Source of the DNA: Pseudomonadota bacterium
GTDB lineage: Bacteria; Desulfobacterota; Desulfarculia; Desulfarculales; Desulfarculaceae
Direction: 5' to 3'
DNA: 54,742 bases
Assembly: GCA_018819925.1 (NCBI GenBank)
Contig: JAHJPG010000111.1
Coordinates: 1 to 54,742 of the forward strand
Shown: positions 45,022-52,411 of the stretch, piece by piece
How the letters are laid out: each line of letters begins with the position of its first letter
How positions within the stretch are numbered: the first letter of the stretch is position 1
Notes under the pieces: model-generated
The model's database searches: none
What the model was told of the DNA's origin: nothing
What the model saw: only the letters and a program-made list of their open reading frames with translations
Program-made: the position numbers and the translations under genes

Positions 45022-46350
45022 GTGTCTGAAGCTATTCGACCCAAAAAGTTGCCCAAGGAGGCCCTGGAAAAACTCAACGGGGCCAACCTTAATCTTTGCC
45101 TGACCTGCGGCACCTGCTCCGGGGGCTGCCCCATCACCGGCAATCCCAGCGAGGACATGCAGGGCTGGGACACCCGCAAGGTCATCCGCATGCTGGCCCT
45201 GGGCATGATCGACGAGGTGGTGGAAAGCCGCTTCCCCTGGCTGTGCACCGGCTGCGGCCGCTGCGCCGCCGCTTGCCCCATGGGCTTGGACATGCCGGCC
45301 ATCTTCGGCTACATGAAACACCTGCGGCCACGGGACCAAGTGCCGGGCATCCTGCACAAGGGCGTGGTCAACGTGCTGGAGACCGGCAACAACATGGCCA
45401 TCCCCCGTGACGACTATCTTTTCACCATGGCCGACATGGGCGTGGAGATGGCCGACGACTGCTGCCCCGGCTTCTACGTGCCGGTGGACAAGCAGGACGC
45501 GGACATCCTGTTCTTCCCCAACTCCAAGGAGGTCTTCGGCGACTTTGAGGACATGTACTGGTGGTGGAAGATCTTCTACGCGGCCAAGGAAAACTGGGCC
45601 ATCCCCAGCAAGAACTGGGAGGCGGTGGACTGGGGCCTGTTTACGGGCAACTACGAGGCCACCCGTATCCTGGCCCAGCGCAAGATCGACATGATGAAGG
45701 AGTTCAACATCACCCGCATGATAATGCCCGACTGCGGCGGCGGCTCCTACGGCTGCCGGGCGGGTATGAAGGTCTGCGAGATCGACGATCCCAGCAACGT
45801 CACCAGTTGGGTGTACCTATACGACTACCTCAAGGAGATCATTCAGCAGGGGCGCATCAAGCTGGACAAGAGCGTGTACGCGGGCAAGACCTTCACCTGG
45901 CACGACTCCTGTAAACACGGCCGGGAGTTGGAGAGCCACTACGGCCACGGCTACTTCGAGGAGCCCCGCTGGATCATTAAGCAGTGCGTGGACAACTTCG
46001 TGGATATGTACCCCAACCGCATGAACGGCAACTGTTGCGGAGCGGGCGGCGGCAACTGGCCCGCGCCCTATGAAGACGACTCGGCTTGGCACGGGCGCAA
46101 GAAGTATGAGTCCATCAAAGAGTCCGGGGCCGACGTGGTGGTGGTGGCCTGTTCAAATTGCCACGACCAGCTGATGAAACGCCTGCCCAAGTACTATACG
46201 GACTACAAGTACGAGGTGAAATACATCTGGGAGCTGATTGCCGATTGCCTGGTCATCGACCCATGGACCGAGGAGGAGATAGCCAAGGGCGAGGCCGAGG
46301 CCGCAGCCCAGTGGGAGCGCCTGGGGGTGGACCTGGACATGGAATTCTAG
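45022..46350 (+). CDS. HdrD/DsrK-like heterodisulfide reductase-related iron-sulfur protein
   Basis: A 442-residue (Fe-S)-binding protein, GTG start. Two [4Fe-4S] motifs form the HdrC-like N terminus: CLTCGTCSGGCP (Cys26-36) and CTGCGRCAAACP (about 76-87). Two CCG-type domains follow, with PDCGGGSYGCRAG, then HDSCKHGRE...CCGAGGGNW...ACSNCHDQL, which can bind the non-cubane [4Fe-4S] catalytic cluster of HdrB/HdrD. Sulfate reducers use homologues (DsrK, TmcB, HdrD-like) to pass electrons between soluble carriers and membrane complexes. Paired with an MvhD-like protein and with no HdrA in the window, it probably reduces a disulfide or passes electrons from hydrogen or formate. Confidence 0.88.
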   Translation: MSEAIRPKKLPKEALEKLNGANLNLCLTCGTCSGGCPITGNPSEDMQGWDTRKVIRMLALGMIDEVVESRFPWLCTGCGRCAAACPMGLDMPAIFGYMKHLRPRDQVPGILHKGVVNVLETGNNMAIPRDDYLFTMADMGVEMADDCCPGFYVPVDKQDADILFFPNSKEVFGDFEDMYWWWKIFYAAKENWAIPSKNWEAVDWGLFTGNYEATRILAQRKIDMMKEFNITRMIMPDCGGGSYGCRAGMKVCEIDDPSNVTSWVYLYDYLKEIIQQGRIKLDKSVYAGKTFTWHDSCKHGRELESHYGHGYFEEPRWIIKQCVDNFVDMYPNRMNGNCCGAGGGNWPAPYEDDSAWHGRKKYESIKESGADVVVVACSNCHDQLMKRLPKYYTDYKYEVKYIWELIADCLVIDPWTEEEIAKGEAEAAAQWERLGVDLDMEF

Positions 46351-46425
46351 CGGGCTGCTTGCAATTGGCCGGTTCGGGCCTTATGTTTGCAACTAAACCC
46401 AACCCCCAGAGAAAGGCATTTGGTC

Positions 46426-46752
46426 ATGATGGAAGTTACCCCCGCGGCCAGCGAGGCCCTCAAGGCGGTGATGGCCGAGAAAAACCTCGAGCCCCCCATC
46501 CGCATATTCTTGCAGTCCGGCTGCAGCGGCTCTCAACTGGCCCTGGGAGTGGATGAAGCCCGCGACGGCGACGACCAGTTCGACGTGGACGGCGTAAGCT
46601 ACGTCGTCGACAAGAATCTCTCCGATTTGGTGGGCGATATGAAGCTGGACTACCTCACCGACGAACAACAGCAGGGCTTCCTGCTCTCCAGTTCCAAACC
46701 CCTGCCGCAACCCGAGGGCGGCGGTTGCAGCAGCGGATGCTGTGGCTGTTAA
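46426..46752 (+). CDS. HesB/IscA-like protein, Cys form of a selenoprotein family
   Basis: A 108-residue protein of the HesB-like (seleno)protein family, related to A-type iron-sulfur carriers. I start at the ATG 9 bp after AGAGAAAGG; an in-frame TTG 13 codons upstream is less likely. The motif SGCSGSQLALGVDEARDGDD is the one where some anaerobes have Sec; here a normal TGC codes Cys. The C terminus is an unusual Cys tail (GGGCSSGCCGC). A strong terminator follows, ending the MvhD-HdrD-HesB unit. Role: probable Fe-S carrier or sulfur relay for its neighbours. Confidence 0.82.
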   Translation: MMEVTPAASEALKAVMAEKNLEPPIRIFLQSGCSGSQLALGVDEARDGDDQFDVDGVSYVVDKNLSDLVGDMKLDYLTDEQQQGFLLSSSKPLPQPEGGGCSSGCCGC

Positions 46753-46775
46753 GGCCTAACCTAGCGTTTTATCCA

Positions 46776-46805
46776 GGGAGAGGGCTTCGGCCCTCTCCCT
46801 TTTTT
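46776..46805 (+). terminator. Rho-independent terminator after HesB-like gene
   Basis: GGGAGAGGGC (46776-46785), TTCG tetraloop, GCCCTCTCCC (46790-46799), then six T. Textbook structure. Confidence 0.96.
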
Positions 46806-46948
46806 GGGCTAATAAATCCTAGCGTATGGTTATTTTATAGTAAGGTATGATAAAAAATCGGTAAGCCCATCCCCGGGACGGCCAGGACCTCGGCGGCCAA
46901 GGGCCAGCCCTGAGGCTTTGCTCCCGGGACGTGCACAGAGGAGTTTAG

Positions 46949-47314
46949 ATGGCCAAGAAAATTCTGATAATCGAAGACGAAAACCACGTCGCCGAGTACC
47001 TTCAGGACATCTTTCAGGATCAGGGCTATGAAACCCTGATCGCGGCCAGCAGCGCGGAGGGCCTGGAAATGGCCGCCAGCCACAGGCCGGATCTGATAAC
47101 CCTGGATTTGCAGATGCCCGCCGAGCACGGCACCCGCTTTTATCAGCGCTTCCGAAAGGATGAGGACCTAAAGGGGATTCCCATCGTGGTCATCACCGGC
47201 CAGCACTCGCCCCACCGGTCCATAAACCCGGACAAAGTGGCGGCCATGGTGGTCAAGCCCTTCGAGCCCGGTGAGTTGGTGGCCATCGTGCAAAAGGCCC
47301 TGGGCGAGGAGTAG
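46949..47314 (+). CDS. Single-domain response regulator (CheY-like)
   Basis: A 121-residue receiver domain. The acidic pocket (Glu9, Asp10), phosphoacceptor Asp53 in LITLDLQMP, Thr in VVITGQH and Lys in VVKPFEP are all present, so it should be phosphorylatable. It has no output domain and so acts by protein contact. It lies 24 bp upstream of a receiver-PAS-histidine kinase and is probably its phosphorylation target. Confidence 0.92.
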   Translation: MAKKILIIEDENHVAEYLQDIFQDQGYETLIAASSAEGLEMAASHRPDLITLDLQMPAEHGTRFYQRFRKDEDLKGIPIVVITGQHSPHRSINPDKVAAMVVKPFEPGELVAIVQKALGEE

Positions 47315-47338
47315 CCCCGGCGGGGTTGCGGGGCCTGC

Positions 47339-48901
47339 ATGGGCGACAAAATTCTATTGCTGGCCCCTGCGGAACTGGGCCAGAAGTTGGCCAAGCAATT
47401 GGCCGGCTGGGGTCACATTTCCCTGCGTGCCATGGACTCCGAGGAGGCCCTGGACCTGGCCTTCCGTCACAAACCGGCCATCAGCATCCTGGACGACGCC
47501 CCGCCCGGTAGCGAGGCCCTGGAGTTGGTGCGCCGCTTCAAGGCCCAGCACCCCTGGACCGAGACCATCTTCCTGACCGATCTGAACGACATCGAGCGGG
47601 GGGCCCGGGCCCTGGAGTTCGGGGCCAGCGACTTCCTCCTCAAGCCGGTGAGCGCCCATCGCCTGGGGGTGGCCCTGAGGCGGGCCCAGGACCGTTTGGT
47701 GGTGCGCAAGAAGCTGGCCTACCTTTCCGGCTTGGCCCCCAACGGCGCGATGCCCGCTTCCCTGCCTCCGGCTGGCGGCGAAACCTCCCGGGCCGCCCAG
47801 CTTTACGACACCTTGCAGCAGTATCAGCAGCTCTTTGACGAGGTGCCCTGCTACATTTCGGTGCTGGACCACCATTTCACCATCACCGCGGTGAACCGGC
47901 GTTTCAAGGAGGAATTCGGCGACCTGGTGGGCAAGACCTGCCACGACGTTTACCAGGGCCGTTGCGAGGGCTGCCCCGACTGCCCGGTGGGCGACACCTT
48001 CGTGGACGGCCAGTCCCACCAGTATGAGCAGATGCTGCGCGCCCTGGACGGACGGCGCTTCAACGTGCTCACCTGGACCGCCCCCCTGCGCGACGCCCAG
48101 GGCGAGATAAACCAGGTCATGGAGATGTCCACCGACATCACCCAAATCCGCAAGCTGCAAGACCACCTATCCTCCCTGGGCATGGTGATAAGCTCCATCT
48201 CCCACGGGGTCAAGGGCCTGCTCACCGCCCTGGACGGGGGCATGTACAAGATGAGGGCCGGCCTGGAGCGCGGCGACATGGGCCGGGTGCGAAAGGGCTG
48301 GGAGCTGGTGGAGCTGATGATGAAGCGCATCCGCAGCACCGTATTGGACATCCTGTACTACGCCAAGGAGCGGGAGCTGGACACCGAGCTGGTGGATGTG
48401 GCCGAGTTCGCCAAGGGGGTGGCCCTGGCCGGGGAGTACGCGGCGGACAAGCACGGCCTGGATTTCAAGCTGGTGCTGGGCCCGGACCTGGGCCGCTTCG
48501 AGGTGGACCCCAACGCCCTGAACCCGGCCATGACCAACATTTTGGAAAACGCGGTGGACGCCTGCCTTTACGACCGGGAAAAGCCCCGCCACCGCATCCT
48601 GTTCCAGGTGAGCCGCGAGGACGACGTTCTGGTCTTCGACATAGTGGACAACGGCAAGGGCATGGACCAACAGACCCTGGACAACATGTTCACCCTGTTC
48701 TTCACCTCCAAGGGTTCGGCGGGCACCGGGTTGGGTTTGTTCATCGCCAACGACACCGTGCAGCAGCATGGCGGGTCCATCACAGTGGATTCCGAGTCCG
48801 GCGAGGGCTCCCACTTCCACGTGCGCATCCCCGAGCACCCCATGGCCATGCCCTGGGAGCGGGCCCCGGGGCCGCTGACCTCCAAGAACCTGCCTTTTTA
48901 A
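47339..48901 (+). CDS. Sensor histidine kinase with degenerate receiver and Cys-rich PAS domain
   Basis: A 520-residue soluble kinase. Residues 1-120 are a receiver-like domain; Asp52/Asp53 are present, but the N-terminal acidic pocket is replaced (ILLLAPAELG), so phosphorylation there is doubtful. Residues about 160-275 form a PAS domain containing YQGRCEGCPDCPVGD, three Cys in nine residues, possibly a metal, Fe-S or redox site. The dimerisation/H box is SSISHGVKGLL with His289, and the ATPase domain has NILENAVDA, DIVDNGKGM and GTGLGLFIAND. No transmembrane segment. Its stop overlaps the stop of the convergent lgt gene by 2 bp. Confidence 0.88.
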   Translation: MGDKILLLAPAELGQKLAKQLAGWGHISLRAMDSEEALDLAFRHKPAISILDDAPPGSEALELVRRFKAQHPWTETIFLTDLNDIERGARALEFGASDFLLKPVSAHRLGVALRRAQDRLVVRKKLAYLSGLAPNGAMPASLPPAGGETSRAAQLYDTLQQYQQLFDEVPCYISVLDHHFTITAVNRRFKEEFGDLVGKTCHDVYQGRCEGCPDCPVGDTFVDGQSHQYEQMLRALDGRRFNVLTWTAPLRDAQGEINQVMEMSTDITQIRKLQDHLSSLGMVISSISHGVKGLLTALDGGMYKMRAGLERGDMGRVRKGWELVELMMKRIRSTVLDILYYAKERELDTELVDVAEFAKGVALAGEYAADKHGLDFKLVLGPDLGRFEVDPNALNPAMTNILENAVDACLYDREKPRHRILFQVSREDDVLVFDIVDNGKGMDQQTLDNMFTLFFTSKGSAGTGLGLFIANDTVQQHGGSITVDSESGEGSHFHVRIPEHPMAMPWERAPGPLTSKNLPF

Positions 48902-49668
48902 ACCGGCCGCGCCCGCCGCCGCCAGCCCCAGAAGAGCCCCAGCAGGCAAAGCAGAGCCAGGCCCAGGGCGAAGAGCCCGGTGGGGGTCAGCCCGGCCAGG
49001 ACCGCCTCGCCCCGCCAGTCGGCCCGGAAGGGCTCGATTATCAGGCGGGCCACGCCATGCATGAGGCCGTAGGCCAGCACCACCTGCCCGGCGAAGCGCC
49101 GCCGGGGCAGCAGCCAACAGAGCAGGGCGAAGATGATGAACAGCGCGACGGCGGTGTAGATCTGGGTGGGGTGCAGGGGTATGCCGGTGGGGGCCAGGGA
49201 ATGGGGGGCGCTGAACACCACCGCCCAGGGGCCGTCAAAGGGCTTGCCGTAGCTGTCGCCGGAAAAGAAGCAGCCCACCCGGCCCAGGGCCTGGCCCAGG
49301 GCCAGGGAGGGAGCCAAGAGGTCGGCCCAGGCGGCGGCGCCCCAGCCCTGGGAGCGGCCCCGCCAAATGACCAGGGGCAGGGCGGCGGCCAGGCCGCCGT
49401 AGAAGACCAACCCGCCTTGCCAGATGAAAAGCACGCGGCCCAAATGGCCCAGCAGGGGGCCGGGCTCCAGGAGCACGAAGGCCAGGCGCGCCCCGGCCAG
49501 GCCGGCCAGGACCAGCCACAGGGCCTCGCTCTGGGCGGCGTCGGGGTCCAGGCCCAGACGCCGGGCGTTGACCCTCAGGGCGATAAGCCCGGCCAGCACT
49601 CCCAGGGCCAAGAGCACCCCGTAGGTATGGATGGGCAGCGGGCCCAGATTGAACAGGACGGGGTGCAT
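48898..49668 (-). CDS. lgt: Prolipoprotein diacylglyceryl transferase
   Basis: A 256-residue integral membrane enzyme that transfers diacylglycerol from phosphatidylglycerol to the lipobox Cys of prolipoproteins. Lgt signatures are intact: ALGQALGRVGCFFSGDSYGKP, HPTQIYTAVA and an N-terminal PIHTYGVLLALGVLAG. About seven transmembrane segments. The ribosome-binding site on the minus strand is GGAGGCC. It would process the lipoprotein at 38032, among others. Confidence 0.93.
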   Translation of the reverse strand: MHPVLFNLGPLPIHTYGVLLALGVLAGLIALRVNARRLGLDPDAAQSEALWLVLAGLAGARLAFVLLEPGPLLGHLGRVLFIWQGGLVFYGGLAAALPLVIWRGRSQGWGAAAWADLLAPSLALGQALGRVGCFFSGDSYGKPFDGPWAVVFSAPHSLAPTGIPLHPTQIYTAVALFIIFALLCWLLPRRRFAGQVVLAYGLMHGVARLIIEPFRADWRGEAVLAGLTPTGLFALGLALLCLLGLFWGWRRRARPV

Positions 49669-49707
49669 GGCGCGTGGCCTCCTGGATGGGGCTGGGCCCG
49701 CCCGGGG

Positions 49708-49953
49708 TTAGTGGCAACTGGGCCCCGAGGCCCCGAACTCCTTATCATTGGCCCGGGCCAGGCGGTCCAAAAAACGGCCCCAGCGCCCCTTGGGCTTGGC
49801 GCAGCAGCCACCGGCCAGGAACTTGTCCCGGCATCCCGGCGCGCAGAAAAAGTAGAGCCGTTCACCCCGCTTTTCCATGTACTGCGCCCCGTCGGTCTTC
49901 ACCGGCATCTGGCAGATGGGGCAGGGTTCGGTTCGTTGTATCATTTGGCTCAT
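49708..49953 (-). CDS. Small YHS/TRASH-like Cys-rich metal-binding protein
   Basis: An 81-residue protein with CPICQMPV and YFFCAPGCRDKF spaced as in YHS/TRASH metal-binding domains, followed by GGCC and a basic tail. Such small proteins bind transition metals and are linked to metal trafficking or sensing. The ribosome-binding site is CAGGAGGTGACGC. It shares a strand with lgt and the Gly/Tyr-rich secreted protein but each seems separately expressed. Confidence 0.75.
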   Translation of the reverse strand: MSQMIQRTEPCPICQMPVKTDGAQYMEKRGERLYFFCAPGCRDKFLAGGCCAKPKGRWGRFLDRLARANDKEFGASGPSCH

Positions 49954-50011
49954 GCGTCACCTCCTGGGGAGGTGGGGGCCCGGACCCGAGAGCCCGGACC
50001 CCCAGGGAATG

Positions 50012-50326
50012 CTATCGCTCCAGGTTGTCGCCGGCCGGGGGAGTCACCGGCGCGCGCTGGTATCCAGGTCCGTAGCCCTGGTTGGGTCCGTAATTCTGGC
50101 CTTGGCCGTTACCCTGGTAGTCGTTCCAGCCGGGGCAGTTGGCCGGGCCGTAACCCTGACCCTGGGGGCCCGGGCCGTAGCCGTTGCCTTGGTACATATG
50201 GTAGCCGGGGTTCATCATGTGGCCGCCCCAGCCGCCGCCCATCCCGTATCCGCCCCAGGCCATGGCCCCGGCGGCCAGCATAAGAGTGAAGGCTGCCGCG
50301 AGGATGAATGTGGTGGCTCGTCTCAT
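50012..50326 (-). CDS. Secreted Gly/Tyr/Asn/Pro-rich low-complexity protein
   Basis: A 104-residue exported protein. The signal peptide is about residues 1-22 (MRRATTFILAAAFTLMLAAG, cleavage near AMA). The rest is low complexity: WGGYGMGGGWGGHMMNPGYH and repeated GPGxQGQGYGP/NYGPNQGYGP. The strong AAAGGAGGAAAAAC ribosome-binding site argues for expression. Met and His early in the mature part could bind metal. No family recognised. Confidence 0.7.
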   Translation of the reverse strand: MRRATTFILAAAFTLMLAAGAMAWGGYGMGGGWGGHMMNPGYHMYQGNGYGPGPQGQGYGPANCPGWNDYQGNGQGQNYGPNQGYGPGYQRAPVTPPAGDNLER

Positions 50327-50415
50327 GTTTTTCCTCCTTTGAAGGGTTGTGTTTGCCCTGACTAAGTTGCAGCGGGCGTGCCAACCTGGGGGGAAGGGGA
50401 AAATTATTTCTCTAA

Positions 50416-50436
50416 AACCTATTAATATAGTAGGTT
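50416..50436. promoter_or_regulatory. Operator-like inverted repeat in divergent spacer
   Basis: AACCTA (50416-50421) and TAGGTT (50431-50436) form a 6-bp inverted repeat, extendable to 9 bp with one G-T mismatch. It lies in an AT-rich stretch between the divergent secreted-protein and DsrE genes, a plausible regulator-binding site. Confidence 0.4.
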
Positions 50437-50607
50437 ATGGGGGGGCGCTCCTGCAAGGGCGGCCCCTAAATTGTTCCAATGGCTGAGTAATATTTTCGCG
50501 CCCAGGGTCCTGGGCGCACATATTTTTCCCGGGGCCGCCTGCTGGGGCATAATAAAGGGAGGGTCCGGCTTGGGACCACGGCAAATCATCGGCAAGGAGC
50601 GCAAGGC

Positions 50608-50955
50608 ATGGACAAGGCAGCGGACACCCTGGTTATTATCTGGTCCTCCCGCGACCGGGAGGTGGCCAAGAACATGGTCTTCATGTACGCCAAAAACTCG
50701 CGGCTCAAGGGATGGTGGCCGGCGGTGCGCCTGGTGGTGTGGGGGCCCTCGGCCTCGCTCATCGCCGAGGACGCCGAGCTGCAAACCGAGCTGGAGGAGC
50801 TGAGGCAGGCCGGGGTGGAGCTTTTGGCCTGCCGCGCCTGCGCCGACAAGTACGGAGTGGCCCCCCGCCTGGAGGAGCTGGGCATCGAAGTGATCTACAT
50901 GGGCCAGCCCCTCACCGAATATTTACGAGCCGGCCTGCCGGTTCTGACCTTTTAG
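50608..50955 (+). CDS. DsrE-family protein
   Basis: A 115-residue DsrE/F-like protein. The fold pattern is intact: beta strand DTLVIIWSSRD, then MVFMYAKNSRLKGWWPAVRLVVWGPSASLI, with the conserved cysteines in LLACRACADKYGV. This subgroup is related to sulfur-relay proteins (DsrEFH, TusBCD), although its exact role is unknown; some deltaproteobacterial DsrE-like proteins are selenoproteins, but here both Cys are TGC. The ribosome-binding site is GGCAAGGAGCGCAAGGC. The LUD gene follows by 45 bp. Confidence 0.82.
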   Translation: MDKAADTLVIIWSSRDREVAKNMVFMYAKNSRLKGWWPAVRLVVWGPSASLIAEDAELQTELEELRQAGVELLACRACADKYGVAPRLEELGIEVIYMGQPLTEYLRAGLPVLTF

Positions 50956-51000
50956 CGGCCTTGGGCCACCCCTTGGACCCAACCACAATGGAGGAATGAC

Positions 51001-51645
51001 GTGGACGCCCATCAGCAGAAGTGGAACCAGACCGTGGCCCAGGGCATCATCGCCTGGCTGGAAAAAAGACGCATGGCCGGCTACTACGCCGCCGACGCCG
51101 CCCAGGCCCGGGAGTTGGTGCTGGGCATGATCCCCGCCGCCGGCACCGTGTTTCGCTGCGGCTCCTGCAGCGTGGTGGAGATGGGCCTGTGGGAGAAGAT
51201 CGGGGCCATGGAGGGAGTGGAGGTCATCAATCCCTACCTGCCGAGCCTGAGCCCTGAAGAGGGCCTGGCCACGCGGCGCCGGGGCCTGAGCGCCGACGTG
51301 ATGGTGGCCAGCAGCAACGCCATCACCCTGGACGGCCGCCTGGTGAACCTGGACGGCATGGGCAACCGGGTGGCGGCCATGGCCTTTGGCCCGGCCAAGG
51401 TGATTTTGGTGGTGGGCATGAACAAGGTGGCCCCGGATCTGGAAAGCGCCAAGGCCCGCGTCAAACACTACGCCGCTCCGGTGAACGCCATGCGCATCAA
51501 CATCGAGACCCCCTGCACCAAAGACGGCCTGTGCGCCGACTGCCGCGCCCCCCGGCGCATCTGCAACATCTGGAGCGTAATCGAGGGCTCCAGCATCCTC
51601 GGCCGCATCCATGTGGTGCTGGTGGGGGAGGACCTGGGCTACTAG
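51001..51645 (+). CDS. LUD-domain protein (LutC/DUF162 family)
   Basis: A 214-residue LUD-domain protein starting at GTG after GGAGGAATGAC. The family core is visible: AGTVFRCGSCSVVEMGL, ADVMVASSNAITLDGRLVNLDGMGNRVAAMAFGP and VILVVGMNKVAPDLESAKARV. The C terminus carries several Cys (TPCTKDGLCADCRAPRRICN), which may bind an Fe-S cluster or metal; this tail is common in the anaerobe subgroup. LutC-type relatives participate in lactate oxidation, but a stand-alone protein like this has no assigned reaction. A terminator follows. Confidence 0.87.
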   Translation: MDAHQQKWNQTVAQGIIAWLEKRRMAGYYAADAAQARELVLGMIPAAGTVFRCGSCSVVEMGLWEKIGAMEGVEVINPYLPSLSPEEGLATRRRGLSADVMVASSNAITLDGRLVNLDGMGNRVAAMAFGPAKVILVVGMNKVAPDLESAKARVKHYAAPVNAMRINIETPCTKDGLCADCRAPRRICNIWSVIEGSSILGRIHVVLVGEDLGY

Positions 51646-51669: not shown

Positions 51670-51707
51670 ACCGCCGCTGCGGCCCAGGGGCCGTGGGGCG
51701 GTTTTTT
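51670..51707 (+). terminator. Rho-independent terminator after LUD gene
   Basis: ACCGCC (51670-51675) pairs with GGCGGT (51697-51702) and CGGCCC (51680-51685) with GGGCCG (51688-51693); a T run (51702-51707) ends it. It separates the DsrE-LUD unit from the following selenoprotein candidate. Confidence 0.88.
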
Positions 51708-51784
51708 CTTTGATGGCCCCCTTTTGCCGGGCTGGAATTACTGCGATAATTAAAAGATAATATTCGCCACCACAGGGAGAATAC

Positions 51785-52411
51785 ATGCCCCGGCCGCCCC
51801 TTACCCTGGAAGTCTTCAGCGACTACATCTGACCCTGGTGCTACTTCTGCACCGGGCGTGTGGAAAAACTGGCCGCCGAGGAAAACGTGGCCGTCAAGTG
51901 GATCGCCTTTCCCCTGCACCCGGAGACCCCGCCCCTGGGGAGCACCCTGGAGCAGCTTTTCGCGGGCCGGGGAATGGACATCCCGGCCATGCTGGCTCGT
52001 CTGGAGGCCAACGCCAAGGCCGAGGGCCTGGCCTGGGGCATGCGCACCATGACCTTCAACAGCCGCCGGGCCCAGGAACTGGGCAAGTGGGCCGAGGAGC
52101 AGGGCAAGGGCGAGGCCTTCCACATGGCCATGTTCCAGGCCTACTTCGCCGACGGGCGCAACCTCTACGACCTGAAAGTGTTGGCCCAGGGCGCGGCCCA
52201 GGCGGGCCTGGACCAGGACGCGGCCATGGAGGCCGTGGAATCGGGCCGTTACGCTTCGGCGGTGGACGAGGACTGGGCCTATAGCCGACAAGTGGGCATC
52301 AGCGCGGTGCCCAGCTTTCTGGCCGGACGCCGCTTGCTGGTGGGGGCCCAGCCCTACGTTCAGCTAAAGGCCCTGGTGGACAACGCCCGCCAGGGAGGGC
52401 AGTTGCTATAA
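51785..52411 (+). CDS. DsbA/FrnE-family thiol oxidoreductase, selenocysteine (UPWC) candidate
   Basis: A 208-residue protein if the in-frame TGA at 51830-51832 (codon 16) is read as Sec. The ATG is preceded by CAGGGAGA at normal spacing. The start reads PRPPLTLEVFSDYI-U-PWCYFC, matching the FrnE/DsbA N terminus xxEVFSDYvCPWCYxG with Sec replacing the first active-site Cys. Family sequence continues without interruption: VKWIAFPLHPETPP, AEGLAWGM, NSRRAQELGKWA, FQAYFADGRNLYD, and the cis-Pro loop ISAVPSFLAGRRLLVGAQP. No signal peptide, so cytoplasmic, like FrnE and 2-hydroxychromene-2-carboxylate isomerase relatives. A conventional call would start at the GTG at 51860 and lose the active site. 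A nonsense mutation cannot be excluded. Confidence 0.85.
51845..51865 (+). promoter_or_regulatory. Candidate bacterial SECIS hairpin
   Basis: TTCTGCAC (51845-51852) pairs with GTGTGGAA (51858-51865): eight pairs including two G-U, around the 5-nt loop CGGGC. The loop begins 21 nt after the TGA and has G at its second position, fitting the usual bacterial SECIS rule (loop about 16-37 nt downstream, G in the first two loop bases). A competing hairpin CCC-t-GGTGC/GCACC-GGG (51833-51856) with a bulged T and 7-nt loop also forms directly after the TGA. Confidence 0.6.

Follow-up and report, generated by a model that had tools for sequence, protein, structure and literature searches.

The gene at 51785–52411 on the forward strand of the window—the whole 54,742-nucleotide stretch of Desulfarculaceae DNA that was analysed—almost certainly encodes a thiol-disulfide oxidoreductase of the FrnE type, probably cytoplasmic, with selenocysteine (Sec) as its predicted nucleophile. 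The Sec codon, the SECIS hairpin, the Sec machinery of the host genome, the fold and the conservation of the gene among its relatives were all computed here. The original prediction, of a Sec-containing FrnE/DsbA-family UxxC protein with an in-frame TGA, is supported by the conservation, by the machinery and by the SECIS-type hairpin.

The coding sequence specifies 208 residues with a UPWC active site, and is defined by its frame, its Pfam match and its fold; the coordinates include the TAA stop. A ribosome-binding site, GGGAG (51775–51779, forward strand), can be read directly 5 nt upstream of the ATG at 51785, as had been claimed, and the nearest members of the genus have purine-rich sequence at this position, too. 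Translation yields MPRPPLTLEVFSDYI-U-PWCYFCTG..., with a single in-frame TGA, and ends at the TAA. That TGA is codon 16 (51830–51832, forward strand), the first residue of UPWC, and corresponds in position to the first Cys of CPWC in DsbA-family proteins; codon 19 (TGC, 51839–51841, forward strand), which is invariant in the alignment, is the resolving Cys. The protein contains Cys at residues 19 and 22 only. The Pfam DSBA domain matches residues 7–196 (E 5e-33) and so spans both flanks of the TGA, in keeping with the earlier observation that family sequence continues on either side in one frame. When both strands of the window are scanned, five TGA sites turn up with a CxxU or UxxC context and a coding-like downstream frame, and in just one of these, 51830–51832, is the TGA flanked on either side by family sequence, by inspection.

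Exactly one in-frame TGA occurs in this gene, at the same codon, in all eight genomes of the genus (the window's own included), the other seven proteins being 57–83% identical to that of the window. Judged by its dN/dS of about 0.09–0.17 against the genus members (YN00), the gene is under purifying selection. Because the codon is shared by eight of eight genomes and the gene is selected in this way, comparison confirms that the TGA is due neither to chance nor to sequencing error; a random nonsense mutation at this position, called improbable from the outset, is indeed so. Across an even sample of 395 genomes from the phylum, a cut-off of E 1e-25 yields 79 matches in 78 genomes. A TGA is present in 65 of these matches and absent from 14, of which one lacks its N-terminus. 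In every one of the 54 TGA relatives read out, about 32–83% identical to the window protein, the TGA occupies the first position of the xP[WFY]C motif. Among the TGA-free homologues read, this codon is TGC or TGT and no other residue is seen, and thus the comparison of orthologues at codon 16 that the original prediction proposed finds TGA or Cys codons only among the relatives read. Named records place the TGA clade in the Desulfarculaceae, the Syntrophobacteraceae and other Thermodesulfobacteriota. A separate contig search used the Cys pattern DYICPWCY, and hence over-sampled Cys homologues; the Sec and Cys proportions given here are drawn from the 395-genome survey only. One member of the phylum (G286) has two TGA-containing copies of the gene (L120 and L101), one of them cut by a contig end.

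Following the TGA is a bacterial SECIS-type hairpin (51845–51865, forward strand), recognized by folding and by covariation. Its 8-bp stem, 51845–51852 paired with 51858–51865, closes a 5-nt apical loop, CGGGC (51853–51857), with G at the second loop position: UUCUGCAC-CGGGC-GUGUGGAA. The TGA and the loop are spaced 20 nt apart. In the published model of bacterial SECIS elements the loop is 3–9 nt with G in the first two loop positions, the stem is 4–16 bp, the spacing is 16–37 nt and the energy is −7.5 kcal/mol or lower (PMC13188914). The hairpin conforms to this model, the energy limit being reached only with flanking bases: the bare hairpin has an energy of −6.8 kcal/mol, and the hairpin with flanking bases −7.8. 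A scan of the window with Rfam gives no match over the gathering scores, a result that is uninformative because bacterial SECIS elements differ in sequence.

The pairing was compared with a null of 500 synonymous-codon shuffles. The 31 Sec members form 227 of their 248 possible pairs (shuffle mean 165, maximum 179); in 33 Cys homologues, 150 of 264 pairs form versus 145 in the null, no excess. In the Sec members the hairpin is thus selected beyond the protein sequence. Covariation is strong. Changes on both sides of the stem that keep the pairing account for 34 cells, as against 11.0 in the shuffles, none of the 500 shuffles reaching as high (29 distinct sequences); compensating changes of this kind occur at six of the eight pairs; sliding the partner by 1–3 columns drops the pairing from 91% to 26–52%; and RNAalifold, unprompted, draws the identical eight pairs. 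Eight further Sec members, mostly outside the set from which the hairpin was defined, form seven or eight of the eight pairs, and Cys members two to six. Three Sec members pair at only five of eight, and their SECIS may need to be drawn differently.

When the 57-nt stretch downstream of each TGA is folded freely, the structures are mixed, and a codon-constrained GGUGC/GCACC hairpin often prevails. In the window, a competing hairpin, CCUGGUGC with GCACCGGG (51834–51856), overlaps the SECIS and is favored over the SECIS stem when the RNA is folded in isolation (−14.2 versus −6.8 kcal/mol for the SECIS stem alone). A ribosome at the UGA would probably mask the 5′ half of this competitor and would have to open it, which makes the competing hairpin a possible position-dependent switch.

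All of the components needed for Sec are encoded by the host genome (4.03 Mb in 145 contigs, 96% complete), each scoring above its curated cut-off: selA (621 bits, cut-off 268), selB (389.5, cut-off 242), selD (369.5, cut-off 125) and tRNA-Sec (73.2, cut-off 47). The search for this machinery suggested by the original prediction therefore comes back positive throughout. Of the 61 TGA-bearing genomes tested, 57 have selB by a cut-off of E 1e-55; of the four assemblies in which selB is undetected, three are 76–85% complete. The host selD (L085, G000:C9:7683–8606) itself has an in-frame TGA, and its product is likely to be a selenoprotein, too, as SelD is in many bacteria.

Could the UGA be decoded as some other residue, by near-cognate readthrough, by a change in the code or by misinsertion of Cys? 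In other systems Cys is sometimes inserted at UGA when selenium is limiting, and by that precedent a minor Cys product is conceivable here. As an account of the gene, we consider this highly improbable. The hairpin and the machinery are specific to Sec, and the genetic code is unchanged, because TGA is the ordinary stop of this same gene in many of the relatives. Scarcely more credible is a start further downstream, at GTG 51860, which would give a 183-residue protein with no active site and leave the upstream part untranslated. A plain ORF caller does report this frame; but relatives conserve, at the protein level, both the residues that precede the TGA and the PWCY that follows, the thioredoxin fold requires the strand at residues 7–12 and the active-site helix, and the ribosome-binding site sits before ATG 51785, instead. 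That the gene is dead, or that a Cys codon, TGC or TGT, has mutated to or been misread as TGA, a single base away, in what is a draft assembly, is refuted by comparison with independent genomes—54 relatives have TGA at the same codon, in independent assemblies that agree on TGA rather than TGC, the gene is under purifying selection, and the hairpin is kept beyond the protein sequence—and we accord it next to no probability.

The reading of the gene as an FrnE-type enzyme agrees with its predicted structure. The AlphaFold2 model, built from a 33-row alignment, has a pLDDT of 95.1. Its top structural match, with a Z of 27.6 and 32% identity over 204 residues, is Deinococcus radiodurans FrnE, which is also the top PDB match by sequence (E 3.8e-26); a Streptomyces DsbA-like protein is also among the best structural matches, and kappa glutathione transferase and HCCA isomerase come next, at Z about 20. 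By its DSBA domain, its x-P-W-C site and its closest solved structure, which is FrnE, the protein belongs to the FrnE subfamily of DsbA (COG2761). The fold begins at residue 7, and no hydrophobic leader is visible on inspection. No NCBIfam model matches the protein above its cut-off.

From these results we infer the insertion of Sec itself, and likewise a catalytic cycle, substrates and a physiological role. When the translating ribosome arrives at the UGA of codon 16, the downstream hairpin would recruit SelB loaded with Sec-tRNA-Sec, which SelA makes using the selenophosphate that SelD supplies, and Sec would be inserted. Sec16 would then attack a disulfide to form a mixed selenenylsulfide, which Cys19 would resolve, as in other UxxC thioredoxin-fold enzymes. 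The 'faster, more reducing' chemistry at first envisaged for this enzyme is a general property of Sec. If D. radiodurans FrnE is a guide, the enzyme probably reduces or isomerises the disulfides of cytoplasmic proteins, perhaps when an anaerobic cell meets oxidative or metal stress, to name one case.

Between the Sec gene and the LUD-domain gene upstream are terminator-like hairpins with a T run (51677–51706, forward strand). Three such were found in the region versus 1.2 expected by chance, a weak excess that faintly suggests the Sec gene has a transcript of its own. Further upstream, at 45022–51645, are genes for an Hdr-like CCG/4Fe-4S protein and for HesB/IscA-like, YHS-like, DsrE-like and LUD-domain proteins. 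These genes accompany the Sec gene only in some members of the genus. Those for the DsrE-like, LUD-domain and Hdr-like proteins are close to it in L104, L106, L107 and L108, but none of the more distant relatives tested has them together, and we therefore claim no functional partner.

How Sec and Cys have been exchanged in this family can be seen in part. The states require seven changes on a tree of 77 sequences, and well-supported branches force at least five, with root and sampling unsettled. Two Geobacteraceae Cys proteins, L059 and L060, cluster with the Sec proteins L037 and L039 (support 100/99), and both of their genomes have selB. The Cys gene of L059, from a Geobacteraceae MAG (L059:4001–4555), retains seven of the eight SECIS stem pairs around a loop of CGTGA, with a probability of 0.002 under the synonymous null (one of 33 Cys sequences tested). 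This is suggestive of reversion from Sec to Cys in L059 and L060, and of a SECIS relic in L059. Whether Sec is ancestral and prevailing in a phylum-wide clade of cytoplasmic FrnE proteins, and nested Cys forms such as L059 and L060 are later reversions that may keep a SECIS relic despite the presence of selB, is a proposal that we rate as slightly less likely than not.

The kind of enzyme is already known; the gene in the window is a well-supported further member and not a new kind, and the original estimate of a 'notable' FrnE-type UPWC protein was too high. The 2005 Sargasso Sea study places a DsbA-like UxxC selenoprotein under COG2761 (PMC1088965), the COG of FrnE (PMC1978522), and a 2026 table of prokaryotic selenoproteins includes DsbA-like UxxC as 'DsbA-like protein form 1' (PMC13188914). 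DsbA-like selenoproteins are also recorded from Desulfovibrio desulfuricans, Anaeromyxobacter and Desulfotomaculum (PMC1794560), and Asgard archaea have them as well (PMC11227280). The literature search turned up no paper that describes a Sec form under the FrnE name; the published name is 'DsbA-like', instead. Three things are added here: the wide occurrence of the Sec form in the phylum, a SECIS that covaries, and a single Cys relative that may retain a SECIS relic. The whole lineage of enzymes has probably been mis-annotated, its genes being taken for truncated or dead ones. The genes with a covarying SECIS, about 65 in number, make up a set ready for experiments, and the natural Sec/Cys pairs of one enzyme offer a way to ask what a cytoplasmic disulfide oxidoreductase gains from selenium.

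Among proteins of solved structure, D. radiodurans FrnE (DR0659; PDB 5cnw, 5coh) is the closest. This oxidoreductase is described as cytoplasmic and as active both as a disulfide isomerase and as an insulin reductase, and its loss sensitises D. radiodurans to cadmium and diamide (PMC8945050). The two proteins have in common the fold, the xPWC site and a conserved Val-Pro before the last strands; the window protein, by inspection, shows no leader. They differ at the nucleophile, which is Cys in D. radiodurans and Sec here, and at the C-terminus. There, D. radiodurans FrnE has a CxxxxC that serves in regeneration, a motif that some FrnE proteins lack (PMC8945050), and which, being found in many but not all, is not a defining feature. 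The window protein, with no Cys after residue 22, has none, and because of this its recycling must differ. 2-Hydroxychromene-2-carboxylate (HCCA) isomerase and kappa-class glutathione transferase belong to the same DsbA-like fold superfamily, but at 13–21% identity are lower matches and not the closest group; of the two families first named as relatives, then, FrnE stands and HCCA isomerase is a more distant relative in fold. The Rcas_1661 thioredoxin-like (seleno)lipoproteins (NF041057, DsbG-like) are also a family of UxxC thioredoxin-fold selenoproteins; assignment of the window protein to them was rejected, the match scoring 48.6 bits versus a cut-off of 190 and covering residues 93–200 only. 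The published DsbA-like UxxC selenoproteins (COG2761 / PF01323) have the DSBA Pfam domain, the UxxC motif and a SECIS downstream of the TGA, just as here, a likeness of COG, Pfam and motif description that does not imply identity of subfamily. In the portions of the literature consulted, these come from marine metagenomes, a few bacteria and Asgard archaea, whereas the clade described here spans a phylum, the Desulfarculaceae included.
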